Assembly (NCBI GenBank): GCA_032622095.1
Contig: CP136065.1
Coordinates: forward strand, 241,779,530-241,843,529
From: Siphonodentalium dalli
Lineage: Eukaryota; Mollusca; Scaphopoda; Gadilida; Siphonodentaliidae
Direction of reading: 5' to 3'
Length of the DNA: 64,000 nucleotides
This document shows, piece by piece, positions 3,310 through 63,486 of the stretch (the stretch's first letter is position 1; each line of letters opens with the position of its first letter). The position numbers and the translations under genes are program-made. The notes beneath the pieces were generated by a model, which was given only the letters and a program-made list of their open reading frames with translations, did not search any database and had not been told where the DNA came from.

Positions 3310-3556
3310 CCCTTTGAGTGCCAGGTCGATTTTTGTAGCAACCCATATACCCTGTGCCAATGCATTCTCTTATATATGCGAGTCGACCATAGGTCGCCTC
3401 GCATATATAAGAGAATACATTGGCCTAACAATTTTTTTTGTTTTAATTTTTTTTTTTTACAATTTTTTACAATTTTAATAATTTATTCCTAAATTCTTTA
3501 ACAGACTTATTTTGTATGTTTAGGGCCGATGAGATCGGCCCCGGGCACTCAAATGG
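3310..3556. mobile_element. TTAA MITE, family B (CCCTTTGAGTGCC ends)
   Basis: Terminal inverted repeats CCCTTTGAGTGCCAGG and CCGGGCACTCAAATGG sit between TTAA duplications at 3306-3309 and 3557-3560. CCC-type ends with TTAA targets are the piggyBac superfamily signature. The body contains one 69-bp palindrome (3356-3424) and a poly(T)-rich stretch, with no coding capacity. The copy 2 counterpart at 41772-42018 has a better right end (CCTGGCACTCAAAGGG). Confidence 0.8.
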
Positions 3557-3582
3557 TTAAATGTGTTTTATTACGTGGTTAA

Positions 3583-3974
3583 CCCTTTACCCAACAAACC
3601 GGCCAAAAACGGCCAAATAAAGCTTGAACAGCCTAAATTATCTTGGGTCTGTCTCAATAAAACCATACAAATATGGATATCATTGGAACCGGCTCATTGA
3701 CCATATTGTGATGGTTACAGTTATGCCCTGTGACAATGCATTCTCTTATATATGCGAGTCGACCATAGGTCGCCTCGCATATATAAGAGAATGCATTGGC
3801 CTAAAAAAAATCTTTTTTTAACACTTTTTACCATTTTTTCTTACATTCTTTAACAATTTTATAATTTTTAATGTGTTAAGCCAATGCATTCTCTTATATA
3901 TGCGAGGCGACCTATGGTCGACTCGCATATATAAGAGAATGCATTGGCACAGGGCCGTTCTGTTGGGTAAAGGG
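3583..3974. mobile_element. TTAA MITE, family A (CCCTTTACCCAACA ends), absent from copy 2
   Basis: 392-bp element with perfect 14-bp inverted ends CCCTTTACCCAACA. TTAA lies at 3579-3582 and 3975-3978. Copy 2 has a single TTAA at 42041-42044 in identical flanks, so this is a direct filled-site/empty-site pair. Inside is a pair of 69-bp palindromes in opposite orientation (3732-3800 and 3880-3948) separated by an AT-rich spacer. The left arm also has GGCC-rich subterminal repeats. Non-autonomous, piggyBac-like. Confidence 0.92.
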
Positions 3975-4024
3975 TTAAGAAATATACATAATATGTTGGC
4001 TGAATGTTGGTGCATTTTTATCAA

Positions 4025-4330
4025 TTTAAAAAAAGAGAATGTATTGGCCTAACAATTTTGTATCTTTTTATAAATATTTTTTACATTCATTCTTTAACAA
4101 ATGTTATGATTTTTTAAATAATTTGTTCTTACATTCTAATTTTTATAATTATATGTCCCATAATTTCATTATTTCTTACATTTTTTATAATTTGTTCAGT
4201 TTTTCTCACAATTTTTAAGAATTATAAAAAATAATATAAAATTTGTCAGGCCAATGCATTCTCTTATATATGCGAGGCGAGCCTATGGTCGACTCGCACA
4301 TATAAGAGAATGCATTGGCACAGGGTCTTT
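4025..4330. repeat. Decayed palindrome-cassette element
   Basis: Half of a 69-bp palindrome remains at about 4034-4055, followed by AT-rich spacer and a full palindrome at 4250-4319 that ends in GGCACAGGG. The outer MITE ends are not recognisable. The same remnant is in copy 2 (about 42095-42395), so it predates the split of the copies. Confidence 0.65.
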
Positions 4331-4430
4331 AATGTTCAACCATTGGCTTATTTGTGCGAAATACATCTAAGAATAGATAGAACCATGTTGGTATCAAGTC
4401 TGAGTGTAGTGTGTCTGTTATTTGCAAAAT

Positions 4431-4832
4431 GAGGTCCCAAGAGGAGGAATTTATTGACGCTATCCCGCATAGCAGGCTAGCATCACTAAATTCACCCTCA
4501 TGGGACCTCAACCTGCTCAGGCCTCATCTTATCTGGAAAGTTTTCTTATTATCAAATTTATATAGAGACTTATTCACATAGATTATATTTCTGTATTAGT
4601 TTATATAGTGTATCTATGTCCCTAAATTGGCAGACGACACATTGCTTAATCGAGTTCCCAATGGGTGTACATCACAATATTCACCATTTGGGAACTTCAA
4701 TCTGAGTCTATGTCTTCCATATATAGCAGATGAGGCCATGCAGAATGAGATCACCAGAGGATGAATTTGGTGATGCTAGCCCACTATGCGGTATAGCGCC
4801 ACTACATTCGCCCTCTGGGGACCTCAATCTGC
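4431..4832. repeat. Pair of GAGGTCC palindromes
   Basis: Two imperfect palindromes of 80-90 bp (4431-4510 and 4742-4832) start with GAGGTCCC or GAGATCACC and end in the complementary GGGACCTCA. A central GTGATGCTAGCCC motif is shared. Related copies lie at 23169-23260, 42493-42572, 42804-42895, 58592-58680 and 59180-59268. This is a hairpin family distinct from the 69-bp palindrome, usually located beside it. Confidence 0.65.
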
Positions 4833-5200
4833 AAATGACTGGCACACTAAACTCAGACTTGGTTGGTCTATCAATAGGTCTGACATTATAGAGGCATATC
4901 TTGGCAGCTAGTTGTCTGCCAAATGTTTTGTTGTAATGCATCGTTTGCACGCATGCACGTAACGTATATTTAGTCACTGTGCACCCATTGTTAACCGATG
5001 ATCAATATATCTGTCAGCCACCCACAACACCTCAGTCAATTACGTAAGCCAACCCAATCGTTTCTGGATGTTGGCACCGGTTTATAGTCGTAAATTCTTC
5101 ATGATAGGTGACTCGTGAACACAAAGATATATTTGGTTTTCAGGCTACTGTGTGTGATGTTGTGATCATACTCGTCTTCTTATTACAGTTATGACGCATA

Positions 5201-10591: not shown

Positions 10592-11872
10592 TAATGGTTT
10601 ATTTCCACTGTCGTGTACTTCGCCATATTAACTATTGCATTACTGAATGGATGACCACAGAGAGCTAGCAACCACACACGTGTTTGGAACGATGCCAGCA
10701 TTCTCGATTGCAAATGACCTATCAATGAAGATGTCAAAATTAAGTTGTGTGCTGCCATGTCACTTTAAAGATGGTCTATGTTTTCCTATAACAAGTTTTA
10801 TATAGTTTCCTGGGTACTAAATGATAAATATGAATCGCAGACCCCTGTCCGGAAACGCTTCCATCAATTACTATGGATGTTATATATAATTTTCTGGAAT
10901 ACTATACATACAATCAAATTGGGGCAGTTTACGGCTCGCGTTCGTTCGGAACGTAGCATGCGGGATAACTCTAACTAAAATAGTAACGAAAAAACGTCTC
11001 TATTGATTATCGCATTATATAAGATAGTATCGATATAAAATCGATATTAATTGATATACACGTATTAAGCGTTTCCGGACAGGTGTCGATCTTCGACTCA
11101 TATTTATTATTTTATACCCCGCGGAAACTATATAAAACGTGTTACGGAATAGAAGAGTTATACTATCTTTAAGCAAAGCCATCGTCTGATTGTCCTGGAC
11201 TTGATGATTGTTCGCCGATCTGTCCATATGATGTATGTAACTATGAGTTTGATCTGTCCATATATAGGCATGATGTATGTAACTATGCGTTTGACCTGTC
11301 CACATATAGACCTGATGTCTGTTACTTTGAGTTTAATCACACTTTTCATAGTGGAACGCTGCCACATTCAGAATGCACCATTATAATCACACGAACCAAG
11401 CTGCATACAATTTTTGTCCCCGAGGATAAGTTGATTATATATTGTGAATCTGATGTTGACATCTTTCCGATAAAAATGACTGTCCCTTGAGTTTCAAACT
11501 GTTGATGTGAACTTGAATCCTGTCTATACTAAATACCTATTGATTATTATAGTAGAGTAGTTTCCTTAGGGGACATGTTCAAATACTAAGTTCAATATGG
11601 TCGTTTGTTAAACTTATTATCTGAACATTTCTCACGAATCAATATGAACCCGTCTGCACTTGCATTATCTGTTCGGCTCTATGTCATCTGGTCATTTTTT
11701 CTGAACACCCCTACAAATCAATAATAGACCATTCAGATATATACTGTTATAACTGAGTGGGAGAATCCATTCAGTATAGGAAGGGTTAATACATAATGCA
11801 GTACAACGGTTTTCCATTGAGAATCAATTTGAAACACTTAGAATAAACATGCTATCATTTAACCCTTTACCC

Positions 11873-12255
11873 AACAGAACGGCCCTGTGCCAATGCATTC
11901 TCTTATATATGCGAGTCGACCATAGGTCGCCTCGCATATATAAGAGAATGCATTGGCTTAACACATTAAAAATTATAAAATTATTAAAGAATGTAAGAAA
12001 ATATGGTAAAAAGTGTTAAAAAAAGGATTTTTTTTAGGCCAATGCATTCTCTTATATATGCGAGGCGACCTATGGTCGACTCGCATATATAAGAGAATGC
12101 ATTGGCACAGGGCATAACTGTAACCATCACAATGTGGTCAATGAGCCGGTTCCAATGATATCCATATTTCTATGGTTTTATTGAGACAGACCCAAGATAA
12201 TTTAGGCTGTTGCAGCTTTATTTGGCCGTTTTTGGCCGGTTTGTTGGGTAAAGGG
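11873..12255. mobile_element. TTAA MITE, family A, absent from copy 2
   Basis: 383-bp element with CCCTTTACCCAACA ends. TTAA lies at 11869-11872 and 12256-12259. The empty site is a single TTAA at 48808-48811 in otherwise identical flanks. Palindromes at 11889-11957 and 12038-12106 are arranged head to head. It is in the opposite orientation to the element at 3583: here the long GGCC-rich arm is on the right. Confidence 0.93.
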
Positions 12256-12471
12256 TTAAAGATGTAATCGTGGTTCCATAGCTCCTCTTACAAACAATAT
12301 TAAATGATAAAATCTAGTTACTTTACCATTGGCTTTGCACAAATCAAACCCAATCGTTGGTTATCAACGAAATAAAAGGGGCTCGATGCCTTCGAAGTGG
12401 GTTCATACGAAATAACAGAGAAATCAACAACAACAACAACAACAATAACAACAACAGCAAGTACATGTTAA

Positions 12472-12984: not shown

Positions 12985-14310
12985 TTTATGTTTACCCATA
13001 GTATGGTAAACATAGTGTCGTTGCCCGGATTGACCACTCGTCGTTGGTCCGTCTGTCTGTCCGTAGACACTTTACGAGTAATGCGATAACTCAAACATTT
13101 TTTATCCGATCGAAACCAAATTTTGTATATGGGTTTCTCAGCCCAAAATACAGATCGAGTTCGAATTTGGGTTTGATCCGAGATTTTGTTACAGAGTTAT
13201 GGCCCTTTTTCAACTTAGAATTCACGCATTCTGCCATAACTCAAACATTTTTTATCTGATTGGAACCAAATTTTCACAGCCCAAAATACAGATCGAGTTC
13301 GAATATGGGTTTGATCCGATTAATTTTAAAGAAGTTATGACCCTTTTTCGAAAAAAAAAATGGAAAAAAAAAATCAATTTAAAAAAAAAATTACTTTTAA
13401 CTTTTATAATAATAATAATAAAAAAAATGTCATTGACATTGTCATTTGTTTTCATTTAGATATTGATGATTATGATAAAAGTTGATAAAAAGATTTCCAA
13501 TGTGTCTGTTTAATTTTTTTAAATAATTAAAAAGTTTTTAAGTTAAAATTTTTTGAAAAACTAACACCATTATAACTCTGCCAAGGGTACCCCGAATCAC
13601 CACACCAAATTTGATTAAATCGGTCCAAAATCTTGTGTTATGTACTGGTAAATCTGTTTGGAGCAACATTAAATTCAATTCACCAATTGCCTTTGGACTA
13701 CTTAGCTATTGATAAGGCTATATTATTTTCTGATGTCTCTTATGCCAATGTGCAAATAATCTGATAAAGAAGGCTATGGTATCTAATTTAAAATAAAGAT
13801 TCAACAATAAACATCACATGATATTAACAGTAGACATCTCTGCTGCAGAGTTATATCTTCAGATGGTCTGATATCATTATAATTGACATCAGACATCAGA
13901 GGTCAGTGTTCAACATAAACAATTCCTGTGATATTTTGACAGCTCTGCTATATAATTGATATTAATGGGTCAGTGGTGAGGTTGCTTATTTGTATACTAG
14001 GACACATTATTATTGTAAACTTAAATTGGACTCTCTTAACCCAAGTATTCCATGTCCAGGTCACACCTACACATTTAACCCATGGGCTTGCTGGCTGTGG
14101 TGGTTTAGCATTACAGATCCTGTACCAGTGCATTCTCTTATATAAATGCCAGTGACCCATAAATTCCAATAATTTGTGTTATGTACATTTGTCTATAATA
14201 GTACATAACAGTATACTCTATAATTCAACACCAAAATTCTCATTTATCCGATCATATTAAATTTTTATCGCCAAGGGATGGGTTAACATCTGCCGATCGT
14301 GATCGGCCTC
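12985..14310. repeat. Copy-1-specific block with 'unidentified repeat' sequence
   Basis: Copy 2 joins directly across this position (near 49527). The block holds a repeated 100-bp-scale motif (about 13080-13200 and 13230-13340) with CATAACTCAAACATTTTTTA and GAGTTATGGCCCTTTTT. Such motifs are common in interspersed repeats of marine invertebrates. It also holds a decayed 69-bp palindrome arm near 14120-14150. No gene found. Clear element ends were not identified. Confidence 0.6.
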
Positions 14311-16190: not shown

Positions 16191-16196
16191 CTTTAA

Positions 16197-16535
16197 CCCT
16201 TTACCCAACAGAACGGCCCTGTGCCAATGCATTCTCTTATATATGCGATTCGACCATAGGTCGCCTCGCATATATAAGAGAATGCATTGGCTTAACACAT
16301 TAAAAACATTTTTTTAGGGCAATGCATTCTCTTATATATGCGAGGCGACCTATGGTCGACTCGCATATATAAGAGAATGCATTGGCACAGTGCATAACTG
16401 TAACTATCACAATGTGGTCAAGGAGCCGGTTCCAATGTTATCCATATTTGTATGGTTCTATTGAGACAGACCGAAGATATTTTAGGCTGTTGAAGCTTTA
16501 TTTGGCCGGTTTTGGCCGTTTTGTTGGGTAAAGGG
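16197..16535. mobile_element. TTAA MITE, family A, absent from copy 2
   Basis: 339 bp with TTAA at 16193-16196 and 16536-16539, and an empty TTAA at 51382-51385 in copy 2. Palindromes at 16223-16291 and about 16318-16386 are separated by only about 26 bp, so nearly the whole centre can fold. The long GGCC arm is on the right. Confidence 0.93.
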
Positions 16536-16539
16536 TTAA

Positions 16540-18753: not shown

Positions 18754-18965
18754 CAGTAATGCCCTAAATAATTAACCCCTTAACCACAGCAGAATTATGG
18801 GTAACTTTTCAGGATTTAGTCGGAAATATGGCTTGTTGCCATTCATCGTAAAGCTCTCACTGAGAGCTTTCCGGTGAATGGCAACAAGCCATATTTCCGA
18901 CTAAATCCTGAAAATTTACCCATAATTCTGCTGTGGTTAAGGGGTTGATTATTAGGGCATTACTG
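18754..18965. mobile_element. Foldback MITE with TA target (CAGTAATGCCCTAA ends)
   Basis: The whole 212 bp is one near-perfect palindrome with only a short central loop near 18855. TA dinucleotides flank CAGTAATGCCCTAA and its mirror TTAGGGCATTACTG, which suggests a Tc1/mariner-type target. Copy 2 is at 54387-54596 with even better symmetry. Non-coding. Confidence 0.82.
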
Positions 18966-19109: not shown

Positions 19110-20678
19110 GACCAAGTCTTCTCGGGCCACAACAGCTTGGGATATCGGTCGTGTTGCTGCTGTTTTGTACCGAGTCCCGTCCCGTTACTCTTCTATAACG
19201 GACTTTCATTCAAAGGACTTACTACACGTATTACATTCATGTAAACCCATTAATGTGATTAATCATCTGACATAAGGGCTCACATGTCCGCGTTTATAGG
19301 TACTCAATCCGATCAGACGGTCCCCATACCATCAAAATACAACAACAACAACAATTCTTCAAAATACGCTTTAGTTATCAGAAATTACAGAATCGATTTA
19401 TTGCAACAAAATAATGGTAACCACTGTCAACTATGGTATCAAATTTCCCAAAACTTGTTATTTATCAACATTTTGTTCAACAAAATATGGCCATATTATA
19501 ACTAAAGTATCACGATATTTGACCGTATTAGCACTTGATTTTAGAGTTATCCATCTTCATCTGCATTTTTGTCCGAGATCATCCGTTTGACCACGTGTTT
19601 CTGGGCCACATATTATTACACATCTCGAGAAATAAACAAACTTCAAAAATCGATATATGATCACTCTGAGCTTTGATGTGTGGGTTCCTCGACTCAAATA
19701 AAATAGTTTTTACCCCCGAAGCCAAAGAAATAGTATTTTAAGAGCGTCTGATCGGAATGAGTACCATTAATATGTCTTCAAAATGATATACCATTTACCT
19801 CGATAGAAAAAGGTAAACTTATGATACGGTGAATTTTCTGATAGCGCGACAAATCGAAATTCTTTGGAAAACAAGGCTTTATTTACTTTTGAATCTCATT
19901 GCTTTGACATTTAACGGACCTCTGATATATATGCATGTGTTTGATATCATCATGATTGGGAAAGGATACCCTCTATGTTCATATACGCAAAACATCCATT
20001 TGACTTAATACGAAGATATACAAGCAAGATAACCTCCGCCCAATATTCTGGGCGTAAAGTTCGTCATAGTAGAGTAACGGGAGGGGACTCGGTCCACACC
20101 AACCGATATCCCAAGCTGTTGTGGACCGAGAAGACTTCGCCTATAATATGGTGAGCTCACACCAACCGATATCCCAAGCTGTTGTGGACCGAGAAGACTT
20201 CGTCTATAATATGGTGAGCTCACACCGACCGATATCCCAAGCTGTTGTGGACCGAGAAGACTTCGCCTATAATATGGTGAGCTCCCACCAACCGATATCC
20301 CAAGCTGTTGTTGACCGAGAAGACTTCGTCTATAATATGGTGAGCTCACACCAACCGATATCCCAAGCTGTTGTGGACCGAGAAGACTTCGTCTATAATA
20401 TGGTGAGCTCACACCAACCGATAGCCCAAGCTGTTGTGGACCGAGAAGACTTCGTCTATAATATGGTGAGCTCACACCAACCGATAGCCCAAGCTGTTGT
20501 GGACCGAGAAGACTTCGTCTATAATATGGTGAGCTCACACCAACCGATATCCCAAGCTGTTGTTGACCGAGAAGACTTCGTCTATAACATGGTGAGCTCA
20601 CACCAACCGATATCCCAAGCTGTTGTGGGCCGAGAAGACTTCGTCTATAATATGGTGAGCGGCCACAAGCTTGAATGA
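19110..20678. repeat. 63-bp VNTR (9 units) and its inverted single unit
   Basis: Nine units of 63 bp run from about 20088 to 20672, each with CCGATATCCCAAGCTGTTGT, GAGAAGACTTCG and GTGAGCTCAC. The GTGAGCTCAC core is a 10-bp palindrome. A degraded inverted unit with flanking GAGTAACGGGA-type sequence lies at 19112-19200, so the array is part of a larger inverted-end structure. Copy 2 has five units (about 55743-56055). The unit is a multiple of three without stops, so long open frames appear on both strands. I do not regard them as genes. Confidence 0.88.
19308..19766. mobile_element. TTAA element, AGGTACTC family (degenerate target)
   Basis: Ends AGGTACTCAATCCGATCAGA and the mirror TCTGATCGGAATGAGTACC. 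The right flank is TTAA and the left is TTAT. Internal match to members at 24071-24539 and 30933-31404 (shared CTCGACTCAAATAAAATA-type segment). Copy 2 is at 54957-55413. Confidence 0.72.
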
Positions 20679-46061: not shown

Positions 46062-46553
46062 GATCATGCCATGAATCTCTACTCTGAATGCACCGAGTAT
46101 AGAGATCATATTCCACCTGTTCATGGGAACTTTTTGATGTTCTGACGGGGAATTTATAACATTGCACAAATAACGCATGGAATGTATTTCTTTGTTAATA
46201 ATATATTCCCAGCTCGAGATTGCATGATTTGTTATGACTTTTGTTATGCCAATTTCGTAATAACAATTGCTTTGATTACCTGGGAGAAATTCCTTATTGT
46301 CAGCGACGCAAATCAAAAGCGACTCGCACCAAAGTCAACTAAATCACGCAATCTAGAGCTGGAAACCCCCCCCCCCCCACTGTAAAATACATTATGCATA
46401 ATTAAGAAAGAGGTATCAACTAACAAATATGTTTCCGGCGTTGATTTTTCAATGTTATAAACTTGCTATCAGAACATCAAAAGTTACCAGGTTTTGAACT
46501 GGTGGAATGTGATCTCTACGAATATAGCCAGAGTAGAGATTCATGACAGGATC
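46062..46553. mobile_element. Long-TIR DNA element, copy 2
   Basis: Counterpart of 8537-9018. The right end is better preserved here (GAGTAGAGATTCATGACAGG). Confidence 0.75.
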
Positions 46554-47612: not shown

Positions 47613-47966
47613 AATTTTATCACATAATTTGGCCATAAAAGCAGTTTCATAATTATCGGTAATAGACACGTTTAATATCAGCGCGTGCGATGACGTCACG
47701 GCGTTCTTCAAATAACTTGGCGTTCTTCAAATAACTTGCGATCGCTGTAGTTTATGATTGTTGTTTCGATGAATATTTCGCGTTGCTTCGGGTTTATTTG
47801 ATCATGTGATAAAAGGTATCTCACACTCGTCCTATTTTATACGTAATTTATCAACCTCGTCGTCTAAATTCTATTTGAGCCTCGGTAAACCTCGGCTCAA
47901 ATCGAATTTAGTGAACTCGGTTGATAAATTCCGTATAAAATAGAAACTCATGTGAGATCCTCTATG
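47613..47966. mobile_element. Copy-2-specific insertion ending in a 140-bp palindrome
   Basis: Copy 1 runs directly across this site (about 11015-11020). The right part (47817-47958) is a long palindrome with TCTCACA outward, TATTTTATACG inward and GAGCC near the loop. It has the same build as 30285-30431 and 62927-63072 but a different sequence. The left part has TTTTATCACAT mirrored by ATGTGATAAAA at about 47805. A 20-bp phrase GGCGTTCTTCAAATAACTTG is doubled near 47700. Confidence 0.65.
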
Positions 47967-48807
47967 TATAAGATAGTATCGATATAAAATCGATATTAAT
48001 TGATATACATGTATTAAGCGTTTCCGGACAGGTGTCGATCTTCGACTCATATTTATTATTTTATACCCCGCGGAAACTATATAAAACGTGTTACGGAATA
48101 GAAGAGTTATACTATCTTTAAGCAAAGCCATCGTCTGATTGTCCTGGACTTGATGATTGTTCGCCGATCTGTCCATATGATGTATGTAACTATGAGTTTG
48201 ATCTGTCCATATATAGGCATGATGTATGTAACTATGCGTTTGACCTGTCCACATATATACATGATGTCTGTTACTTTGAGTTTAATCACACTTTTCATAG
48301 TGGAACGCTGCCACATTCAGAATGCACCATTATAATCACACGAACCAAGCTGCATACAATTTTTGTCCCCGAGGATAAGTTGATTATATATTGTGAATCT
48401 GATGTTGACATCTTTCCGATAAAAATGACTGTCCCTTGAGTTTCAAACTGTTGATGTGAACTTGAATTCTTTCTATACTAAATACCTATTGATTATTATA
48501 GTAGAGTAGTTTCCTTAGGGGACATGTTCAAATAATAAGTTCAATATGGTCGTTTGTTAAACTTATTATCTGAACATTTCTCACGAATCAATATGAACCC
48601 GTCTGCACTTGCATTATCTGTTCGGCTCTATGTCATCTGGCCATTTTTCCTGAACACCCCTACAAATCAATAATAGACCATTCCCATATATACTGTTTTA
48701 ACTGAATGGGAGAATCCATTCAGTATAGAAAGGGTTAATGGATTATGCAGTACAACGGTTTTCCATTGAGAATCAATTTGAAACACTAAGAATAAACATG
48801 CTATCAT

Positions 48808-48811
48808 TTAA
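48808..48811. other. Empty TTAA site for the MITE at 11873-12255
   Basis: ATGCTATCA-T-TTAA-AGATGTAAT, matching both flanks of the filled site. Confidence 0.93.
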
Positions 48812-49007
48812 AGATGTAATCATGGTTCCATAACTCCTCTTACAAACAATATTAATTGATAAAATCTAGTTACTTTACCATTGGCTTTGCACAAATCAAA
48901 CCCAATCGTTGGTTATCAACGAAATAAAAGGGGCTCGATGCATTCGAAGTGGGTTCATACCAAATAGCGTAGAAATCTGTAAAACAATAACAGCAAGTAC
49001 ATGTTAA

Positions 49008-49503
49008 ATGCCCACTTAATTTTTGAGTCACCGATTATTTATTTTTATTGTGCCTTGATATACGTTTTAATTATAACAATTTATGCCATCAAATATGATT
49101 AAAATACTATAATTCATCACCATTTGGAATGTTTGTGTCTCGTAATGTGCCCATAGAGTAATAGAAAATAGCTGAAAAATAAAATATATCCCCCCCCCCC
49201 CCTTTGGCTCTCAGAATGCAACATAATTCAAATAAAGATGTATTTTCAATGGAAGGGGAATAACTCTATATCTAAATAAAGTTGTTTCCCTTCCATTGAA
49301 AATAATTGACTTTGTGCATAAACTTGATCACAGAACAGACGCCAGTTTCTCAATGAAAACAACATGTTCACAGCTTATTACATCGAATAAGTTTATAATA
49401 CAATGTTTTGGAGCTTACTCTTTCAAATGGTATATGATATGGTGTATATTTTACATAATGTGAATTGGAGGGGGGGGGGGGGGGTCGAGAATTAAGTGGG
49501 CCT
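49008..49503. mobile_element. TTAA element, AGGCCCACTTAATT ends, copy 2
   Basis: Counterpart of 12472-12964. The left end is mutated to ATGCCCACTTAATT and the inner 23-bp stem now has mismatches (GTTGTTTCCC). Confidence 0.78.
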
Positions 49504-49746
49504 TTAAAAATATATTGACGTTTTTCCTTATTTTCATTATTAATAACTCTCCAATAATGATAGTTTGCATATCGAAACCAACAAATGCTATGTAAATACT
49601 CTTACAGTGTGTGAGAGAGATGGATGTTTCAGACTGAAATATTTGAACTTACTACACGATTACCGATGTTTGATGACAAACCACTGTAACAGTTTTTTGT
49701 TTACATATAAATAATGGTTTCAACACGCGAAATTTCGTTATTGAGC

Positions 49747-50285
49747 AGGGGGGGGGGGGTGAACAAATATTTTCCGGCACGTATGCCGGGGTGGGTGGGT
49801 GGTCAAAGCCACCAACAAGCTTTTTTTCCACAACTAAAAAAACAATTTCCTGCTTGTTTTGTTAGTGTTTTTGGCATGAGTTGGGCTTCAAAACCACTTT
49901 GAATGAGAGAAATAACGTGATTCTAACTGGTAAACTGACTGCAGGCAGTTATCGTGTTGTATTTTGTTGCAAATTTTGAAATCCAAGATGGCCGCTGGCA
50001 GCCATGTTTTTTTAGCCGAATTACCTCAAAATTATTCATTCCTATTTACATGTCCATGTTAACATCCATGATAAATAGTATGCACAGAAATTCATATACA
50101 GCTGTTTACAGTGAATTCCCCACGCAAATCTCTGTTTTAGTGTTAAAAGGGGGGTGGGTTGTCAAAAAATGGTCGGAAAAAACTGCCGAAAACGGAAAAA
50201 AATTTGGCGGTGGGTGGGTACAAAAAATGATCGAAAGGGAAAAAATGCCATACGTGCCTGAATTTTCTTTCCGACCCCCCCCCCT
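49747..50285. mobile_element. TIR element bounded by poly(G)/poly(C), subtype 1, copy 2
   Basis: Counterpart of 14536-15083, differing mainly in homopolymer lengths. Confidence 0.7.
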
Positions 50286-51381
50286 GTATTGAGGAGAACT
50301 ATCAATAATTGATATAAAACAGTTGATATATTACTCCATGTTATTCTTAGTGGTGATGTGATACAGACTTTATATATATTGTTTGCTCATTTACCCACGG
50401 CGAATGTCCTGGGTCCGTAATGTGGGCGTGGCAATTTGGGCGTTTTACTGGGTCTTCACTCCGTATAGTTCGTCCTATATCATGCGACTGTGGTATATCT
50501 GGCTGCATGGTCCATACCGTTTGGGCCAGACACGTTAGTACATTTATGTGTTCAAGCGTTATGAATCTATTTTAATCAAATGCTCTCCTTTTCATTTCAG
50601 CATGGCATCTGTGTTCTGTCGAGTTAAAGAATTACATATACAAGAACAGGCGAACTTTCAATGAAACTCTTGTGTTTGGATCGCTGTGCTGATATGATGA
50701 GCGGGTGGTCTAGACGTCTACCCATGAAACGTGCTACCTACTGCAATAAAATCAAAATGTGCCAACTCGTTGATACAAACATTTATTAAATTGGAGAGTT
50801 TGAGATATCAATACGTGTGACTTGTATAACGTACATATAGCATTTTGTTCTTGTAAAATATCAGAATAAGGTAAAAAAAAAATTCTGAACCGGCCGCTCG
50901 TTGTATTTAGTATGAAAACAATTCTGCATATCTTCTATAAAATCTACAAACTATCACAGAACGCATGGTGTGGTTTAATATGCAGGCTAGCTTAGTTATG
51001 GTATTACCATTTTAACAAACGTCATTAAAATAGTTGAGGTTTCCTGGTAATCGCAAGAACAGTAAGGTAGTTTGTATGAGGTAATGTGATTGAGCAAACT
51101 AGTCGCCCAATACTGTTTACTAAGTTTGAGTTTATGAACATGAGTTGAGTCAACCTTATAGTCTATACACTCACGACGTGGATCATGTTTGCAGATAGAT
51201 ATACTTTATTGATAAGCAGTACAGAAATGCTCATTATATGCGTACACATGCCATTTCAATTTATGTTGGAGATGGCGGGATAGCACCTGTACCTGAGTAA
51301 TACAACACACGAGCCAAGATCTCACAGCGCCGCACCCTCTCCCGCGGAATCAGTTTATACGGCGAGTTGAGAAATGATACT

Positions 51382-51385
51382 TTAA
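51382..51385. other. Empty TTAA site for the MITE at 16197-16535
   Basis: GAAATGATAC-T-TTAA-ACATATG here, while copy 1 has the element between two TTAA. Confidence 0.93.
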
Positions 51386-51570
51386 ACATATGTTATTTGT
51401 ATATTAAGCATTATACACAAGAGATTAGGGACAAGTTACATAAATTTACTTAGCCCATCTCCCGATTTACAATAATTTTTTATTTATACTTATTCACTCA
51501 AATGGCGTAGAAAAAGAAACAAAATCATATATAGGTTAAACATATTTACATTTGTGTTTCGGGGTGGGAG

Positions 51571-52395
51571 CAGTCTGAGTAAACTCATACCTAAATATTC
51601 ATTACAACATTGAATATAAGGTCTGACGGATAACATCGCTATCTCATTTCCAAGTCCTCGGGATTCCGTAATCTGATTGATTGCGTAAATTATTTTCCGT
51701 CCAATGAAACCGTATGGGTTAATAAACAAGTGTTAGTGGGCGGAGACTCCCATAATGTCACCTCTAAATATAGTAACAGAGCGGAATTTCTCCGATCGAA
51801 AGCGATGCTTGCAAATACAACAGAGACAACAATGGCTTCGAAATTATATATTCGGATTAATTTGAAGGATGTGCTAGACCTGATAGATAGGCCTGCGCAT
51901 GGTACCAACTTGGCCTCCCATAAATATAAATAGAACTCACTCATGTCCGTGTATTTGATTTACTTTCATGATTGTACCATGGTTTGCAAATCAAATTATT
52001 TGTCGTAAAAAAGTCATCTGAAAGTTAACACCGAGGAAATCAGAGGAAATGACTTAATTTTATGCTTTTAAATAGTTCTAAAGCATCATTTTTGATGACG
52101 ACCTTATTTTTTGCTCTCGGATGCAGCTTTCCGGTTGATGCAGCGAGTTCATCTCCCGAAAAAGAATAGTCGCACACACGACAAATATTATCTGCTGTAA
52201 GTTTATGTCGCGACACAGGCCATTGCTATTGCGAAGCACAACAAATAACACGTGGGGACACCTGTCAATCATCGATGTATTTTTTTTAATCCGTGACGTC
52301 ATTTTGGGGAAGCTCTTCGCTGAATAGAAATGGTTTTGGCCACATAAGCTCCAGACTCTATATTTCAAATATAGAGTCGACGTTCACCCAGACTG
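51571..52395. mobile_element. Mutator-like non-autonomous element, copy 2 only
   Basis: 825-bp insertion with ends CAGTCTGAGTAAAC and (reverse complement) CAGTCTGGGTGAAC, flanked by a 9-bp duplication GGGTGGGAG (51562-51570, 52396-52404). Copy 1 has GGGTGGGAG once (about 16717-16725). A 9-bp duplication suggests the Mutator superfamily, but the ends are short. A hairpin (ACTCTATATTT mirrored) sits just inside the right end. Open frames inside show no transposase motifs. Confidence 0.82.
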
Positions 52396-53542
52396 GGGTG
52401 GGAGATGCCAAAACCGGTTTCGTGGCTAATTTTTTCGAGGTGGCTATTATCAAATGATTTTATCTAGTCGGATTCGAATCGTTTTATTGCAGTTATAAAC
52501 TGATGGAGTGTCTTGAAGAGAATTTTATTTCTTCTAATCGATCGAGTTGTCGGGAATTCCGGAAAGTATATCATTTATATGAGTAATATGTGTAATAATC
52601 AGCCATTCTTAGTATAATGTTTGGCATATTGCCATTCGTTCGGTGTGTAATAGGGACTGAGAAATGTTTCCGGTAGAGAGTGCACACGATCGAGCATCTC
52701 GTCATCGTTAGCTTGCAGTTGTAACTCTTATCTAATACTCTCGTAGTTTCATTGCACTATACTTTACCACTTACACGAGGGTTTCACCCCTAGCCACCCT
52801 GACTCCCGAATACCAGTTAACAGACATGGGTGAATCCTACGTACGGTTAAGAAAATTTAGTATACCTGTAATATAGTTATTTCACACTAATATTATAATT
52901 TTCACACATGTTTGAATTCATATATTAATGTTCATAACTTCAATATATCAAGACGAATGATACTGAATTACACCAAAACGTGTCATTTTGGTTAAGAAAT
53001 TATCCTAATTTGAACAATTTATTTACGATCCGTATAAGCCATGTTGCTGAATATACTGAATATCAATTAACATGGGCATTTGAATCCCGAGTAACAGTTA
53101 ACAACCTGGTATGAATCATGCGTATACGACTTCAAAATCACTAGAATCCCGTTAACCAGAAAGGGAGGGGTGACAGAATCTTACAGGCGAGAGTGGCCAA
53201 TCTTAGTAATACATGTAATGTGTCGTTGAGATGTCTATAACTTTCCAACACGTAATACCGACTAATTTTGAACAATTGAGTCCGATTGAATCACAAATAA
53301 ACTTGAAAATTGGTGCACAGAGGTAACATGACACGGGGAATGTCACAGGATAGGTGCCGTTGACCTCAACTTCTCTTAAATGGGCACTAATAATTAGCAA
53401 TAAAGAGCCTTGATTACTATCAGCTTAAAATATAGATTGTAACTTTCTCCGGAGAGTGTCATGCAATAGGCGCTGTTTACCTCAGGTGACGAATAATTTA
53501 CTAATTCTTCAAACGAGTGTCCTGCATGTCATGTTTGTCATA

Positions 53543-53989
53543 TGTGACCCGCCATATCAAATCCAGTCGTAAGTCGGGATTTTTTTACCCTGTGCCAATG
53601 CATTATCTTATATATGCGAGTCGACCATATATAAGAGAATGCATTGGCCTAACAATTTTTTATAATTTTTTTGTTAATAAATGTTTCTTACAATTTTTAG
53701 GACATAAAATAAAAAAAACATCCATTACCCTGCAGGGAGCCCCACACATATATAGAAGCATATAGAAGAGTGTCGTCTGCTCATGTTTGTCTGGGGCTCT
53801 GTATGGGTGAAATTATAAAATTGTTAAAGAATACAAGAAAAAATTATTAAAATTGTAAAAAAAATTTAGGCCAATGCATTCTCTTATATATGCGAGGCGA
53901 CCTATGGTCGACTCGCATATATAAGAGAATGCATTGGCACAGGGTAAAAAAATCCCGACTTACGACTGGATTTGATATGGCGGGTCACA
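53543..53989. mobile_element. TA-target MITE, family C, carrying the palindrome cassette; copy 2 only
   Basis: Long inverted ends of about 60 bp start TGTGACCCGCCATATCAAAT and run through CAGTCGTAAGTCGGGA to ACCCTGTGCC. The flanks are TA on both sides, and copy 1 has a single TA in CATGTTTGTCA-TA-TTTTTTGACG (about 18361). This points to a Tc1/mariner-type element. Inside are palindromes at 53594-53648 (shortened) and 53870-53938, and a third GGGGCTC hairpin in the spacer. Relatives: 22168-22588 and 57590-57997. Confidence 0.85.
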
Positions 53990-54386
53990 TATATTTTGAC
54001 GGGCAATCAATCCCCTAGTATATAATAATACTGGAAACATTAAAAGGATTTTGCGAGTTTCGTTCAAATGAATTGTTTTGCTATGCATTATACATGTTTC
54101 ACGTATCAGATTCTCAATAACTCTGTTTTATTCGCTCAGCCAGCACCAGTGGTAACTTTTAATGCATATGTGATTATTTGTGATATCAAAATGAATGTGC
54201 TTTGTGTTTTCTTCAGCTGTCAGGCTGAACAAAATCGGCTGTCTTTGTTTTGCTTTTGTTAGTCTGTCATTATCGTGAAGAATATGAAATATGTCGAAAC
54301 ACGATTTCGTTTTTGAATAAATTATCACCCCAGCGGGACTGAGAATACTGCATATATATTAATATACAAACACTTCAAAATAAGTA

Positions 54387-54596
54387 CAGTAATGCCCTAA
54401 ATAATCAACCCCTTAACCACAGCAGAATTATGGGTAACTTTTCAGGATTTAGTCGGAAATATGGTTTGTTGCCATTCACCGGAAAGCTCTGTGAGAGCTT
54501 TCCGGTGAATGGCAACAAACCATATTTCCGACTAAATCCTGAAAAGTTACCCATAAGTCTGCTGTGGTTAAGGGGTTGATTATTAGGGCATTACTG
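54387..54596. mobile_element. Foldback MITE with TA target, copy 2
   Basis: Counterpart of 18754-18965, 210 bp, almost perfectly self-complementary. Confidence 0.82.
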
Positions 54597-54956
54597 TAAG
54601 TACACCCCCCCCCCCCCGATGTGTTCGAGGATAGCTTGAAGCCTTGAAACGTAATCACGCAGAATGCGATGGAATTTTGGGAAGATAATCGCGTATATAC
54701 ATAGTCAGCAACATAATTATCTTATAACTAATTATATGTTTAGACCAAGTCTTCTCGGGCCACAACAGCTTGGGATATCGGTCGTTTTGATGCTGGTTTG
54801 TACCGAGTCCCGTCCCGTTACTCTTCTATAACGGACTTTCATTCAAAGGACTTACTATACGTACACGTGGAGCCCGGGCCGGGCATTCACGTAAACCCCT
54901 GAATGCGATTAATCACCTGACATAAGGGCTCACATGTCCGCGTTTATAGGTACTCA

Positions 54957-55413
54957 ATCCGATCAGACGGTCCCCCATACCATCAAAATACAACAACAAC
55001 AATTCTTCAAAATACGCTTTAGTTATCAGAAATTACAGAATCGATTTATTGCAACAAAATACTGGTAACCACTGTCAACTATGGTATCAAATTTCCCAAA
55101 ACTTGTTATTTATCAACATTTTGTTCAACAAAATATGGCCATATTATCACTAAAGTATCACGAGATTTGACCGTATTAGCACTTGATTTTAGCGTTACCC
55201 ATCTTCATCCGCATTTTTGTCCGAGATCATCCGTTTGACCACGTGTTTCTGGGCCACATATTATTACACATCTCGAGAAATAACAAACTTCAAAAATCGA
55301 TATATGATCACTCTGAGCTTTGATGTGTGGGTTCCTCGACTCAAATAAAATAGTTTTTACCCGCGAAGCCAACGAAATAGTATTTTAAGAGCGTCTGATC
55401 GGAATGAGTACCA
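54957..55413. mobile_element. TTAA element, AGGTACTC family, copy 2
   Basis: Counterpart of 19308-19766. Confidence 0.7.
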
Positions 55414-55742
55414 TTAATCTGTCTTCAAAATGAAATACCATTTACCTCGATAGAAAAAGGTAAACTTATGATACGGTGCAATTTCTGATGGCGCGACAAA
55501 TCGAAATTCTTTGGAAAACAAGGCTTTATTTACTTTTGAATCTCATTGCTTTGACATTTAACGGACCTCTGATATATGCATGTGTTTGATATCATCATGA
55601 TTGGGAAAGGATACCCTCTATGTTCATATACGCAAAACATCCATTTGACTTAATACGAAGATATACAAGCAAGATAACCTCCGCCCACGATTCTGGGCGT
55701 AAAGTTCGTCATAGTAGAGTAACGGGAGGGGACTCGGTCCAC

Positions 55743-56055
55743 ACCAACCGATATCCCAAGCTGTTGTGGACCGAGAAGACTTCGTCTATAATATGGTGAG
55801 CTCACACCAACCGATATCCCAAGCTGTTGTTGACCGAGAAGACTTCGTCTATACTATGGTGAGCTCACACCAACCGATATCCCAAGCTGTTGTGGACCGA
55901 GAAAACCTCGTCTATAATATGGTGAGCTCACACCAACCGATATCCCAAGCTGTTGTGGACCGAGAAGACTTCGTCTATAATATGGTGAGCTCACACCAAC
56001 CGATATCCCAAGCTGTTGTGGACCGAGAAGACTTCGTCTATAATATGGTGAGCGG
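55743..56055. repeat. 63-bp VNTR, five units
   Basis: Same unit as 20088-20672 but five copies instead of nine. One unit has GAAAACCTCG in place of GAAGACTTCG. Confidence 0.88.
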
Positions 56056-56718
56056 CCACAAGCTTGAATGAACACCAAGAGTCGCCGTCCTGTGTAACGA
56101 TATAACAAATCCGTTGGGTTCCCTGTGCCAGGGGACATGTTCATGTACGTATGATGTCTTAAGTGTTACTTATTTTGAGGTATTTAGTCTGTATATATTT
56201 GGGAGACATTTCCTGCGGAATTACAGAGGTCCCATTCCATCTGACTCCTTCATCGGCTGAATAATAGTCTTCTCCTCATGCACAGCGCCAGGACAGGTAA
56301 ATTAAGATGCATGGTCCTTATAGATCCCCTGTCAGATTTCACATCCATAACGCTACCATTGGTGTTTCCATAATAATTAGATCGTACATTAGCCTGTTCT
56401 CCCAAAAATCCGCACATTATCTGCTTATAATATAATTTGTTTAGGTTGGAAATCTGCTTAGAATCTCCCCATTTTGAGTCGATAATGAACTTAATATGAG
56501 TGCGATTTGGTCACATTATCAATTCATAATGACTTCATTATATGTTCATTATGTGCGGACAATGACACAAATAAACTAACTCACGACTTATCAGGTGTAC
56601 GCTCTTTAAAATGTGTTTTTACTGTGGCCCGCGCCATAAAACGGAATAACGAATATGAGTCCATTATCTGCTTATTTCAGAAGCAATTAAACCAATATGA
56701 ACCTATTTCCACGCTAAT

Positions 56719-57281
56719 ACAGGGGGTGGAAAACAAAGTTTTTTCCGGGCACGTATGCCGGGGTGGGTGGGTGGTCGATAGGACCAACAAACATTTTTTT
56801 CCGCAACTAAAAAATATATTTCCTGCAAGTCTGTTTGACTGTTTTTGCAATGAGTTTGGCTTAAAACACATCTATATGTCAATATTAACATAAATGACAA
56901 ATTTCATGATGATCAGACAAACAGTATAGCCTGTAGCCCATGCTAATGGATTGAATTTTGAAATCCAAGATGGCTGCTGGCAGCCATGTTTTTTTTTGAC
57001 CGAATGACCCCAAAATGACTTGTTCCTATTTACATGTCAATGTTAACATCCATGACTAACAGTATGCACATAAATTCATATACAGCTGTTAACAGTGAAT
57101 TTCCCCCCGCAAATCTCTGTTTTAGTGTTAAAAGGGGGTGGGTGTCCAAAAATGGTCGGAAAAAACTGCGGAAAATGGAAACAAATTTGGACGCGGGGGT
57201 GGGTGGGTCCTAACAAGGGTCGAAAGTAAAAAATCAGCACACGTGCCTGCAATTTTTTTTCGACTCCCCCCCCCCTTGGCT
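56719..57281. mobile_element. TIR element bounded by poly(G)/poly(C), subtype 2, copy 2
   Basis: Counterpart of 21329-21870. Confidence 0.7.
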
Positions 57282-57589
57282 GATACACCAATTTTAACCT
57301 ATTTTACGCTAATACACCAATATGAATTGTCGACATAATTCCAAAACAATGGATTTTGTAAAGCGCGACATCTGAACTACGCAGAAATGTAAATACACTG
57401 TCCGCCATTCGTCACGAACAAATCACCGATAAACAATCGATAAATGATTTCCCTAACGAGAGCCGCTATATTTTAGTTGTGTGATAGAATGCTAGACTAT
57501 TCCAACGTATACTTATACAATTGAATGGGAGAATCCATTTAGTATAACAAGGGTTAAATGACTGATTTACAATGAATATGACCCGCCAT

Positions 57590-57997
57590 ATCAAAACCAG
57601 TCGTAAGTCGGGATTTTTTTTACCCTGTGCCAATGCATTCTCTTATATATGCGAGTCGACCATAGGTCGCCTCGCATATATAAGAGAATGCAATTGGCCT
57701 ACCAATTTTTTACAATTTTAATAATTTGTTCTTGTATTCTTTAACAATTTTATAATTTCACCCATACAGAGCCCCAGACAAACATGAGCAGACGACACTC
57801 GTCTATATGCTTCTGTATATGTGTGGGGCTCCCTGCAGGGTAATGGATGTTTTTTTTATTTTATGTCCTAAAAATTGTAAGAAACATTTATTTAAAAAAC
57901 ATGATAAAAATTGTTAGGCCAATGCATTCTCTTATATATGTGAGGCGACCTATGGTCGACTCGCATATATAAGAGAATGCATTGGCACAGGGTAAAA
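57590..57997. mobile_element. Family C palindrome-cassette element, copy 2 (decayed)
   Basis: Counterpart of 22168-22588. Palindromes at 57629-57698 and 57918-57986. Both copies share the same one-base insertion in the first palindrome (CAATTGG), so it predates their split. Confidence 0.72.
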
Positions 57998-58591
57998 AAT
58001 AAGTCTTTTAAATGTTCCACTGCGAGGAACTTTGATTTCTGTAAAGGTTTTATACAATGGGCCAAATTAAAGACATCTTATATGCTTACTGCAATCTTCA
58101 CACTGATATTTTACAGCTCAGCCACTAAACCAATTCGAGGAATGAATCATTAAACTGTTATTGGCGAACATTTCATAAACAAAGGATGTACCCTTTTGTA
58201 AAACTCGACATCTGAACTACGTTGAAATGTAAACAAACACTCCTCCATTCGTACCGAACAAATCGCCGATAGACAATCGAGAATGATTTCGCTAACGAGA
58301 GTCACTATATATTATTTCTATGATAGAGTGCATGATGTTAGCCATGTGCTTGCAATTTTTATACAAAATTAATTAAAATACCTGCTTTAAGCAAGTGTAT
58401 TCGCCGCAGCGAATAGTTTCACATTACTTTAATTTAACTGTGAAAGTTCTCTAAAATCATCGATCCACTCAGTAAAAGCTACTGTCAAGCGACCATGGTT
58501 TGCATTCAGTCAAAGAACACTTAGGCTGCATGGAGTGGTATTCCTTTCCATATCACGTACAAGCCTGCAAATAGTATGTCTGTCATTTGAA

Positions 58592-58680
58592 GAATGAGGT
58601 TTCCATTCCCCAGATGGTGAATTTAGTGATGCCATCCCAGTGGGCTATCATCACCAAATTCACCCTCTGTGGGCCTCTTT
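58592..58680. repeat. GAGGT palindrome, copy 2
   Basis: Counterpart of 23169-23260. Confidence 0.6.
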
Positions 58681-58852
58681 CTGTTTAGGCCTCATATTCT
58701 GGGAACTCTCAAATTAGCTTTAGTTACTTGTTTCCTTCTGTAGTGTTTCTATGTCCCCTCATTTTCAGAAGATAAAATGCATAATCGATATGACTAACGG
58801 CGAACATCATCAACGTCAACTGTAGAACTTCAATCTGATCCTATAGGCTTAA

Positions 58853-59170
58853 CCCTTTACCCAACAGAAGGGCCCTGTGCCAAAGCATTCTCTTATATAT
58901 GCGAGTCGACCATAGGTCGCCTCGCATATATAAGAGAATGCATTGGCTTTTTAGGCCAATGCATTCTCTTATATATCCGAGGCGACCTATGGTCGACTCG
59001 CATATATAAGAGAATGCATTGGCACAGGGCATAACTGTAACTATCACAATGTGGTCAAGGAGCCGGTTCCAATGATATCCATATTTGTATGGTTCTATTG
59101 AGACAGACCAAATATTTTAGGCTGTTGAAGCTTTATTTGGCCGGTTTTGGCCGGTTTGTTGGGTAAAGGG
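58853..59170. mobile_element. Complete family A MITE at the edge of copy 2
   Basis: 318 bp with TTAA at 58849-58852 and 59171-59174. Palindromes at 58879-58947 and 58955-59023 are only 7 bp apart. The left part matches the truncated 23462-23628. Copy 1 has no counterpart beyond the first palindrome and spacer. Confidence 0.9.
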
Positions 59171-59179
59171 TTAATCAGG

Positions 59180-61036: not shown

Positions 61037-61235
61037 TTAAGAAGTATGACATAAATATATGTCATTCTGGCTAAGAAAATAAAAACAAATTAACAATATG
61101 GTGCTATAAATGCTGAGTACCAGTCGTGTTGAATCCTGAATACTGTTTTTAAAATGTTCCCGAGTACCAGAGGGGCATGTATCCTACGTACCACTTCTGA
61201 ATGGTCATTATAATATCAGTGCCTGTTACCTATTA

Positions 61236-61520
61236 GAAAGAAATTCATCAGCAAGGACAAGAGGACATAATAACAAGCTACAGATGAATAGGGATATATA
61301 GGACATGTTTTCTTCACACATAGGGTGGCCAATAGTTGGAACTCTCTGCCAGACTTCGCTGTTGAGGCTCCAACACTCGGTCAATTCAAAATATACATAG
61401 ACTCATTCTTCTATGATATAAAATACGACTTCGATGACAAGTAATATATTTAAGTGACTCAGGTGAAAATATTGATACATAATTGCAAATGATGTTATTG
61501 GGACGAAAAGTCGCAAGATG
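61236..61520 (+). pseudogene. CR1-like LINE ORF2 tail with GAT repeat
   Basis: One frame gives ARTRGHNNKLQ and, after a frameshift and stop near 61305, RVANSWNSLPDFAVEAPTLG plus QFKIYIDSFF and a TAA at 61442-61444. These match the conserved post-RT segment of CR1-type LINEs. A (GATGAT)n tract at 61516-61545 looks like the usual 3' microsatellite tail. Dead, 5'-truncated. Confidence 0.8.
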
Positions 61521-61545
61521 ATGATGATGATGATGATAATGATGA

Positions 61546-62900
61546 AACACACGTACACCCTCCATGGTGTATTTTCTATTGCGCGCACTATATGCATGCG
61601 TGGCTAGAGGTTCCAAACGGAGTAGGAGGGGGTGTCGATCCAACTTAGTATTTCCAACTGCGCCCCTTTTAAATTAGACCAAACTTCCCAAAATCTGGGA
61701 CATTTTTCATGTGCTCGGTTGAAATTTCCAACTGCTATGTACCTCAAAATTCCATATAATTTTCAACATGCGACATGGTATTGTATTGTCGATTGGTATG
61801 TGTTGTGTGGGGGCGTCTTATTAAGGGCTCTGCATGTTGTGTGAGACCTTAATTATTATTAGTTATTGTCTGATTGTCGCACGTGAAAGCGCTTGTTTTG
61901 TGTATCCCTTTCATACGATTACATTGTGTTTGATCTATATAATAAGGTTTGTCTCGTGTGTTCGATCCAGATCAGTTGTTCTTATCTTACTACATTCACA
62001 TACGACAACCAGACAATAACTAACCAGGTCTCATACAACATAGACAATATACAACAAACTCACTTTCGGGGGCTGGAATTATTCCAATTGAATATTGCCA
62101 TTGTTTTTGTCTAAAACTTTGAGGAAACTATATATAATTTGGTCTGAAGCAACAAAGTTCACACCAAATATAGGCAAACTTGTGAAACTAAACTATCAGA
62201 ACAATATCAACCTAGTTTTGGTCTGAAATGTCCAACTTATATTGTTTCAGGTATGAAACCTCTAACTTTTGATCATTCTTACCACATTTGAATGTGGGTG
62301 ATGTACACCCCAAATCCAGCATAGTCCAAGTTTCATTCAACGTAAACCAGCTATATATATTGAAATTGGTGGTGATAATGGTGATATCCCAAATAATTCC
62401 ACTGGGAGATTTACGTCGAAGGAAACTTGGACCAACCACGCCCCTGTCCCCGCATCCCTGGTCAAAATAAATATAACAGGTAAGATTTGATGCTGCGCAT
62501 GGTTACGGATAGCCATTGTTTATTGTCATTCCGTTTTTTTTTGTATGTGTTCTTCGTACCATGTATCTTGGTTGGAAGATTAAACACATCTATCTTCGCA
62601 TACTATATGTATAATTCAACGCCAAGAGAATAGCCGCAGCCAGACATTCCCAATCCTTCCTATACAATGTATAAGGATTAATTAATCAAGAATGACACAG
62701 TTCCATCAATCCCTCGACCTGAATGGGAATCTCATCTCATATAATCGATATCATTTTGTTTATCGATCTGAGTGATATAGTAAATTGCCCTGGAAATAAC
62801 ACCAGACGTCATTAAATCACTGACATTGGGGTAACATAACGAAGAATGCTGATGCGGAGTTATATAGCGGATTTACTATATAAATAGCTAGTGATTTAAT
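61546..62900. other. Spacer without a recognised gene
   Basis: Short open frames on both strands without known motifs. No repeat ends identified. Confidence 0.35.
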
Positions 62901-62923
62901 TACGAAACTCCATGAATACATAG

Positions 62924-63073
62924 AGGATCTACAACTCGTCCCCAGTTTGTAGCGGAATTTACAAAAACGAGTCCAGTAAATTAGATCTGGACCGAACCTT
63001 TGGCGAGGTTCAGACCTAATTTACTGGACGAGTTTTGTAAATTCCGCTATTAACTGGGGACGAGTTGTAGAAT
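62924..63073. repeat. 150-bp palindrome, relative of 30285-30431
   Basis: GATCTACAACTCGTCCCC outward, TTTACTGGAC inward, and a short loop near 63000. Both arms match the element at 30285. Confidence 0.8.
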
Positions 63074-63122
63074 TTAGGTATTACATGATCCAAAACCTAG
63101 AACCTAGATACAAAATACTTAA

Positions 63123-63486
63123 CCCTTTACCCAACAAACCGGCCAAAACCGGCCAAACCCGGCCAAGTAAAGCTTCAACAGCCTAAAATATCTTCGGTCT
63201 GTCTCAATAGAACCATACAAATATGGATATCATTGGAACCGGCTCCTTGACCACATTGTGATAGTTACAGTTATGCCCTGTGCCAATGCATTCTCTTATA
63301 TATGCGAGTCGACCATAGGTCGCCTCGCATATATAAGAGAATGCATTGGCCTAAAAATTCTTTAACAATTTTATAATTTTTAATGTGTTAAGCCAATGCA
63401 TTCTCTTATATATGCGAGGCGACCTATGGTCGACTCGCATATATAAGAGAATGCATTGGCACAGGGCCGTTCTGTTGGGTAAAGGG
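63123..63486. mobile_element. TTAA MITE, family A, within an inverted paralogue
   Basis: 364 bp with CCCTTTACCCAACA ends and TTAA at 63119-63122 and 63487-63490. The empty site is at 30242-30245: TTGCTGAT-TTAA-GTAT there, versus the reverse complement TTGTTGAT-TTAA-element-TTAA-GTAT here. Palindromes at 63282-63350 and 63392-63460. Confidence 0.92.

Follow-up and report, generated by a model that had tools for sequence, protein, structure and literature searches.

Ordinary miniature inverted-repeat transposable elements (MITEs), such as those of Anopheles, have their ends in common and differ in their interiors (PMC3212995). The CMITEs of Acropora corals are TTAA/CCCT-type MITE families with different terminal repeats that have in common an internal region more conserved across families than the ends; a role of this region in transposition and cross-mobilisation was suggested, and an empty allele reported (Wang et al. 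2010, PMC2872659). X-E-X chimeric copies of the Drosophila transposon Galileo carry the interior of one subfamily within the ends of another, explained by ectopic recombination or conversion (PMC3573991), and the ends of piggyBac and piggyBat combine a terminal motif with a subterminal palindrome bound by a transposase dimer (PMC11707139). Here, we analysed a 64,000-nt stretch (the window) of the scaphopod mollusc Siphonodentalium dalli (GenBank assembly GCA_032622095.1, contig CP136065.1, positions 241,779,530 to 241,843,529, forward strand), in which a 69-nt hairpin with a short CCCTGT edge (the cassette) recurs within MITEs with unrelated ends. We consider, with a probability of a little under 60%, that hairpin and edge form a cis-acting mobilisation or amplification site common to MITEs with different target duplications.

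The initial annotation had listed 21 cassette starts in the window, and the unit was present at every one of them, near full length in 19 of 21, with the hairpin tip gone at 53594 and the inner end gone at 41823 (by eye). Its fold was borne out by the consensus (27-bp stem, one T.C mismatch, 5-bp stem, ATA loop), with a predicted energy as single-stranded DNA of -35.4 kcal/mol (z = -15.6 versus shuffles). A total of 23 cassettes were detected in the window by nhmmer, the listed 21 plus those at 33688 and 33789. Among the decayed copies claimed earlier, those near 33692 and 33795 were recovered as both hairpins of one older element of the family termed F4 below, while that at 14120 proved to be only a weak fragment, resembling an F4 arm by eye only and having no nhmmer match at E ≤ 0.01.

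Across the 2.23-Gb, nine-contig genome, the exact 27-bp stem was found 270,224 times (135,127 + 135,097; reversed control 0), an abundance far above chance, and the polar 20-bp edge CCCTGTGCCAATGCATTCTC in 152,002 exact copies (76,182 + 75,820; control 0). Six cassettes fell in 20 evenly spaced 4-kb stretches of the genome. A polar cassette model identified 209 cassettes in the window and 81 loci, the overlapping loci L002-L004 having been dropped before counting. Sixty elements among these (F1 and F3 copies, L005-L064) had been picked by similarity to the window; unbiased statements below rest on copies outside that set, and the 89 cassettes lying outside it are referred to as non-focal. On contig C1, at ~735–771 kb and ~842–921 kb, cassettes were regularly spaced by ~14.56 kb and ~11.17 kb, which suggests tandem arrays of larger segments containing these MITEs.

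The common unit is bigger than a lone 69-mer. Inverted neighbour pairs with their edges facing outward accounted for 66 of the 89 non-focal cassettes (33 pairs by the script's rule, one of which, 41817–42387, spans two different elements); because the cassettes pair in this orientation, the unit is read as a core consisting of a CCCTGT edge, the hairpin, an A/T-rich spacer, and then hairpin and edge again in inverted orientation. Four shells were found around it, non-coding and with inverted ends, with family consensus lengths of 253–465 bp. F1 has TTAA, CCCTTTACCCAACA ends and arms of 20 and 143 bp after the TTAA; F2 has TTAA, CCCTTTGAGTGCC ends and a single hairpin only; F3 has GTGACCCGCC ends and mirror-image arms; and the older, decayed F4 has TTAA and CCCTTNCATGAC-type arms. 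In F2, F3 and F4, every arm that bears a hairpin measures 38–44 bp. The right, cassette-free end of F2 (window 3520–3550) carries a small palindrome of its own, GGGCCGATGAGATCGGCCC, with an arm divergence of 8.8%.

An exact-match census returned 38,839 F1 short edges, 36,730 F1 long edges, 17,902 F3 edges and 12,922 F2 edges, in sum 106,393; the 152,002 edges given above were counted with a different extension, and the gap, partly due to mutation, could include unseen shells. By local alignment to the arms, a known arm was assigned to 81 of the 89 non-focal cassettes. The exact 20-bp edge was present in 46 of the 89, with a known arm on 42; the remaining four represent two loci, each in two duplicate copies, with flanks that are decayed F3-like or F4-like (by eye). 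These four, two cassettes cut by the locus end and two inner halves (by eye) make up the eight without a scored arm. At locus L013 (2805–3318), F4 arms surround a type-1 hairpin and a long spacer seemingly composed of degenerate repeats of roughly 30 bp, which aligned to the spacers of F1 (41/46, z = 6.7) and F3 (36/38, z = 6.1); this element looks like a transitional intermediate. Remnants at 4030–4325 and 42090–42387 of the window are similar to it (by eye).

Comparison of family consensus sequences revealed edge-plus-hairpin segments identical at 75 of 75 positions in F1, F2 and F3, and at 71 of 75 in F4. All 18 cross-family arm pairs scored no better than shuffles (z ≤ 1.9, 300 shuffles), as opposed to z values of 8.0–10.6 for three same-family pairs (the F3 arms, being mirror images, were entered once). 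Spacers were alike between F2 and F3 (43/45, z = 13.3 versus dinucleotide shuffles) and between F3 and F1 (46/53, z = 9.9), and more weakly between F2 and F1 (34/41, z = 3.3). The same inner unit thus lies within unrelated ends and two kinds of target duplication, which upholds the earlier proposal that it has passed between families. Extended homology between the outer families beyond the cassette had been named as the observation that would make them a single family with diverged ends; no such homology was seen between the outer arms, and it is the spacers that match. As drift capable of erasing the arms should have erased the spacer too, the ends have been replaced around the core.

TTAA was present on both sides of 27 of 29 scored F1 copies (one of 30 was unscored). 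A TTAA duplication with a CCYT terminus, as in piggyBac-type elements, was seen in F1, F2 and F4, being read for the latter two from the consensus only. None of 30 F3 copies had TTAA on both sides, which sets F3 apart from the piggyBac type; ATAT was found on both sides in 20, AAAT in two and ATTT in one, with the other seven inexact or odd. The strict TA duplication originally assigned to the TGTGACCCGCC family is therefore better read, from these 30 copies, as 4 bp AWWT: the ATAT copies are compatible with a Tc1/mariner-type TA, but the AAAT/AAAT (two) and ATTT/ATTT (one) copies are not. Likewise, the three different transposases postulated earlier are an overstatement: TTAA with CCCTT ends is common to F1, F2 and F4, leaving F3 as the one family that clearly needs a second enzyme. 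Empty sites were identified in the window's own segmental duplicate for three F1 elements (single TTAA) and one F3 element (single ATAT, with small differences beside it), and whole elements therefore move. Overall, the elements display the general features of MITEs: they are short and non-coding, with terminal inverted repeats, target duplications and, in F1 and F3, empty sites.

Within-family divergence was calculated with CpG sites and indel edges excluded, using 45 F1, 7 F2, 32 F3 and 9 F4 copies; of the eight F2 cassettes, one ran off the end of its locus, and the set excludes several F1, F3 and F4 copies that were truncated. Fifteen F1 copies did not belong to the chosen set (10 came from locus flanks and five from the window, including the query itself). 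In these, hairpin divergence was 7/1707 (0.41%) against 97/2314 (4.2%) in the arms (odds ratio 0.09), and the hairpin lay below arms plus spacer in all 15. Chosen F1 copies gave 15/3653 for the hairpin and 68/4893 for the arms (lower in 26, higher in 4), and F2 gave 5/401 and 26/481 (lower in 7 of 7). No difference was observed in the dead family F4 (hairpin 79/1037, arms 53/653; five lower, four higher). In F1 and F2, spacer and arms drift at similar rates; in F3 the spacer is the faster of the two and drifts freely (268/5718). Along the profile of the 15 F1 copies, low values were recorded, besides TTAA, at the two tips (terminal 14 bp, 0.5 and 1.0%) and in the hairpins (0.6%); the two CCCTGT edges gave 1.1 and 3.3%, and arms and spacer 3–9%. 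The F1 hairpin is about as constrained as the terminal repeats.

Stem pairing was assessed in 56 of the 81 classified non-focal cassettes (full coverage, length 66–72), comprising 29 distinct sequences, in which 91.6% of cells pair. The pair type was switched on both sides at three stem positions, in 5, 13 and 13 distinct rows. The covariation score exceeded all 500 shuffles and all six slid controls, although related sequences can exceed shuffles without structure. The T.C mismatch was invariant in 56 of 56, which speaks against one arm simply serving as template for the other.

We infer from these data that the constraint is for transposition, and likewise which enzymes act and how ends were exchanged. 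The MITEs would be built from two kinds of parts, a common inner core and one of at least four unrelated end sets, with the composite moving whole by cut-and-paste at its outer ends. The F1, F2 and F4 elements at TTAA would most likely be served by piggyBac-type transposases, and F3 at its AWWT site by some other enzyme. Hairpin and edge would be needed in cis for mobilisation or amplification, possibly because a protein binds it as a subterminal palindrome or because the hairpin is extruded; copies with a damaged hairpin would leave few descendants, keeping the hairpin fixed while arms and spacer drift. New ends may have been gained by rare recombination or template switching, at about one event per family, rather than by transposition of the core itself. 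A bolder extension, which we offer tentatively and regard as doubtful, is that the hairpin core is a portable amplifier across unrelated transposases, a second-order parasite of piggyBac-type and non-TTAA MITEs, such that any end set acquiring it gains very high copy number.

Several observations weigh against a cis-acting site. F2 spreads with one hairpin, so that two are not required, and it would be surprising for a single constrained site to serve two kinds of transposase. In F3, with mostly similarity-chosen copies, hairpin (31/3792) and arms (24/2517) diverge alike, and the F2 terminal repeats, at 4.1 and 5.9%, are not constrained. Because the F1 consensus is weighted towards the subfamily of the query, arm divergence is overestimated in other subfamilies, the hairpin being constant across them; moreover, the query is itself among the 15 F1 copies, two of the seven F2 copies are segmental duplicates of each other, and detection via the cassette could favour copies with intact hairpins. 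Double-change stem pairs were unremarkable (six observed, a count reached in 90 of 500 shuffles). No autonomous partner with these ends was found: there were 128 piggyBac-domain matches, yet no TTAA end in three 651-bp 3' flanks, the only ones readable and partial in themselves. Finally, a constraint imposed by the host or by small RNAs would look identical.

There is no sign of the cassette moving alone. The initial annotation had treated the 69-mer as independent and proposed looking for precise cassette-absent versions of the outer families and for a target duplication at the cassette edge; the 69-mer instead sits in a two-hairpin core, exact searches recovered no such versions of F1 or F3, and no consistent duplication was seen by eye. 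By exact pattern, F1 arm-to-arm joins with 0–30 bases between them were matched three times genome-wide, none truly cassette-free, since both cassettes had collapsed to a short CCCTGTGCC...ACAGGG remnant, and F3 joins were matched zero times, with these patterns being blind to diverged or larger empty versions. Such collapsed F1 copies, with a CCCTGTGCCAATGCATTGGCACAGGG-type remnant, are rare and lie on contig C3 at 48307438, 298700082 and 300412028. Outside the chosen copies, a cassette was carried by 18/18 F1 long, 9/9 F3, 8/9 F2, 13/16 F4a and 12/14 F4b arms, F1 short arms being too short for this scoring. If the core were, or had once been, a transposon in its own right with CCCTGTGCC ends, and had entered several host MITEs before the composites were amplified, this would account for the inverted repeats that bound it and for an edge placed identically, to within one base, in all six arm types having it (F4a is one C short). 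This origin is nevertheless unlikely, as host versions of F1 and F3 lacking the cassette were absent from the exact searches, none of the 89 sampled cassettes was a clearly bare core, and no consistent duplication flanks the edge (F1 GG..CA, F3 TA..TA, F4 AA..AT; by eye). TTAA directly abutted only 327 edges out of ~152,000, one of them in an F3 copy with a changed base, and among the 100 such matches listed none had a close inverted neighbour by eye.

We also disfavour, as a rather improbable history, a single ancestral TTAA family in which the hairpin stayed constrained while arms and terminal repeats drifted beyond recognition. The TTAA and CCCTT ends common to F1, F2 and F4 would fit it, as would the similar arm lengths of F2, F3 and F4, and the common CCCTGT boundary could simply mark the onset of constraint; set against this are the freely drifting spacers, still recognisable between families whose arms are unlike, and the different target duplication of F3. 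Low divergence might instead arise with no function at all, mimicked by self-repair of the palindrome (one arm templating the other) or by gene conversion among copies. Palindromes promote template switching, stem changes between types are compensated at the three positions noted above, and copy number is very high, but the F4 hairpins, alike in sequence and structure, decay like their own arms, self-templating should have erased the mismatch, and the CCCTGT edge, which lies beyond the stem, is likewise preserved in F1 (short side), F2 and F3, all of which makes this explanation improbable. Least probable is retention of the hairpin as RNA, e.g. as a structured or small-RNA precursor protecting the elements or serving the host: in its favour are the great stability of the hairpin and its similarity to miRNA precursor models, every match scoring well under the gathering threshold. 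In the one F1 element scanned, Rfam cut-offs were not reached by any family, low divergence follows the young families and is absent from the old F4 copies, and the external CCCTGT edge is kept too. Identity as a miRNA precursor was rejected, given only these sub-threshold Rfam matches in one F1 element.

Table 1 Elements and fragments carrying the hairpin unit in the window
Positions	Strand	Element	Basis
3306–3560	+	F2, TTAA, CCCTTTGAGTGCC ends, one hairpin 3356–3424	Sequence; arm and cassette matches
3579–3978	-	F1, TTAA, CCCTTTACCCAACA ends, hairpins 3732–3800 and 3880–3948; duplicate without element, single TTAA	
4030–4325	-	Remnant, F4-like right flank (CATTAAAGA), type-1 hairpin 4250, left hairpin halved	Family by eye
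11859–12259	+	F1, hairpins 11889–11957 and 12038–12106; empty site with one TTAA in duplicate, ~48808–48811	
14120–14170	+	Weak F4 arm/hairpin fragment	By eye only
16193–16539	+	F1, hairpins 16223 and 16318; empty site in duplicate, ~51382–51385	
22166–22590	+	F3, right arm decayed, hairpins 22219 and 22504 (ends approximate)	
23458–23632	+	Truncated F1, hairpin 23488	
33639–33911	+	F4, TTAA, CCCTTNCATGAC-type arms, two decayed hairpins, tip CTCCC/GGGAG	
41768–42022	+	F2, duplicate of 3306–3560, hairpin 41823	
42090–42387	-	Duplicate of F4-like remnant, hairpin 42313	Family by eye
53540–53992	+	F3 flanked by ATAT on each side, hairpins 53594 (without tip) and 53870; other copy has an empty site with single ATAT, ~18360	
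57576–58004	+	F3, duplicate of 22166–22590, hairpins 57629 and 57918 (ends approximate)	
58849–59174	+	F1, hairpins 58879 and 58955, almost no spacer	
63119–63490	-	F1, hairpins 63282 and 63392	

Positions 1–23558 and 39140–58949 of the window form a segmental duplication with a spacing of ~35–39 kb and main blocks 91–98% identical, useful for dating insertions. It includes an ankyrin-repeat reading frame (3–1553 and 39013–40692) and a 63-bp tandem array with nine copies at 20095–20660 and five in the other duplicate at 55740–56053. Near-perfect palindromes of 91 and 93 bp, with centres of 3 and 1 bp, were located at matching places in the duplicates (54400–54584 and 18767–18953).

These findings bear on the open question of why certain MITEs attain enormous copy numbers. 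A defined 75-bp site recurs under several unrelated end sets, is as tightly constrained in F1 as the terminal repeats and has its control in a dead sister family, so that it lends itself to direct testing. If the hairpin works with more than one transposase, being cut and pasted would be separable from being amplified, and these elements would be a case of transposon ends exchanged around a fixed interior.

The cassette was not found in print, in that a letter search of the open library with 22 of its letters gave no literature match. CMITEs offer the nearest and a direct precedent, with one interior under several different ends, and an internal region common to families with different ends is what was observed here as well. 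CMITEs are ~100-bp elements with one 75-bp internal region, ~1,600 estimated copies and TTAA duplications (PMC2872659), whereas the S. dalli elements have inverted hairpins and a spacer and exceed 150,000 exact edges, one of their shells has a different target duplication, and they offer a putative transitional element and a divergence profile in which a dead family serves as control; the likeness is one of arrangement. Anopheles MITEs are similarly non-coding with terminal repeats, but of the opposite arrangement (PMC3212995), and in Galileo the exchange differs in that the subfamilies involved belong to one P-superfamily transposon and have related long repeats (PMC3573991). Neither the piggyBac palindrome nor the F1 hairpin (20 and 143 bp after TTAA) is equally far from both tips, although the former measures 19 bp against 69 nt here; this likeness is one of layout (PMC11707139) and does not explain F3, which lacks TTAA. 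Relative to these systems, the S. dalli core is new in having paired hairpins, in its scale, in crossing between types of target duplication and in that its divergence could be measured against a dead sister family.

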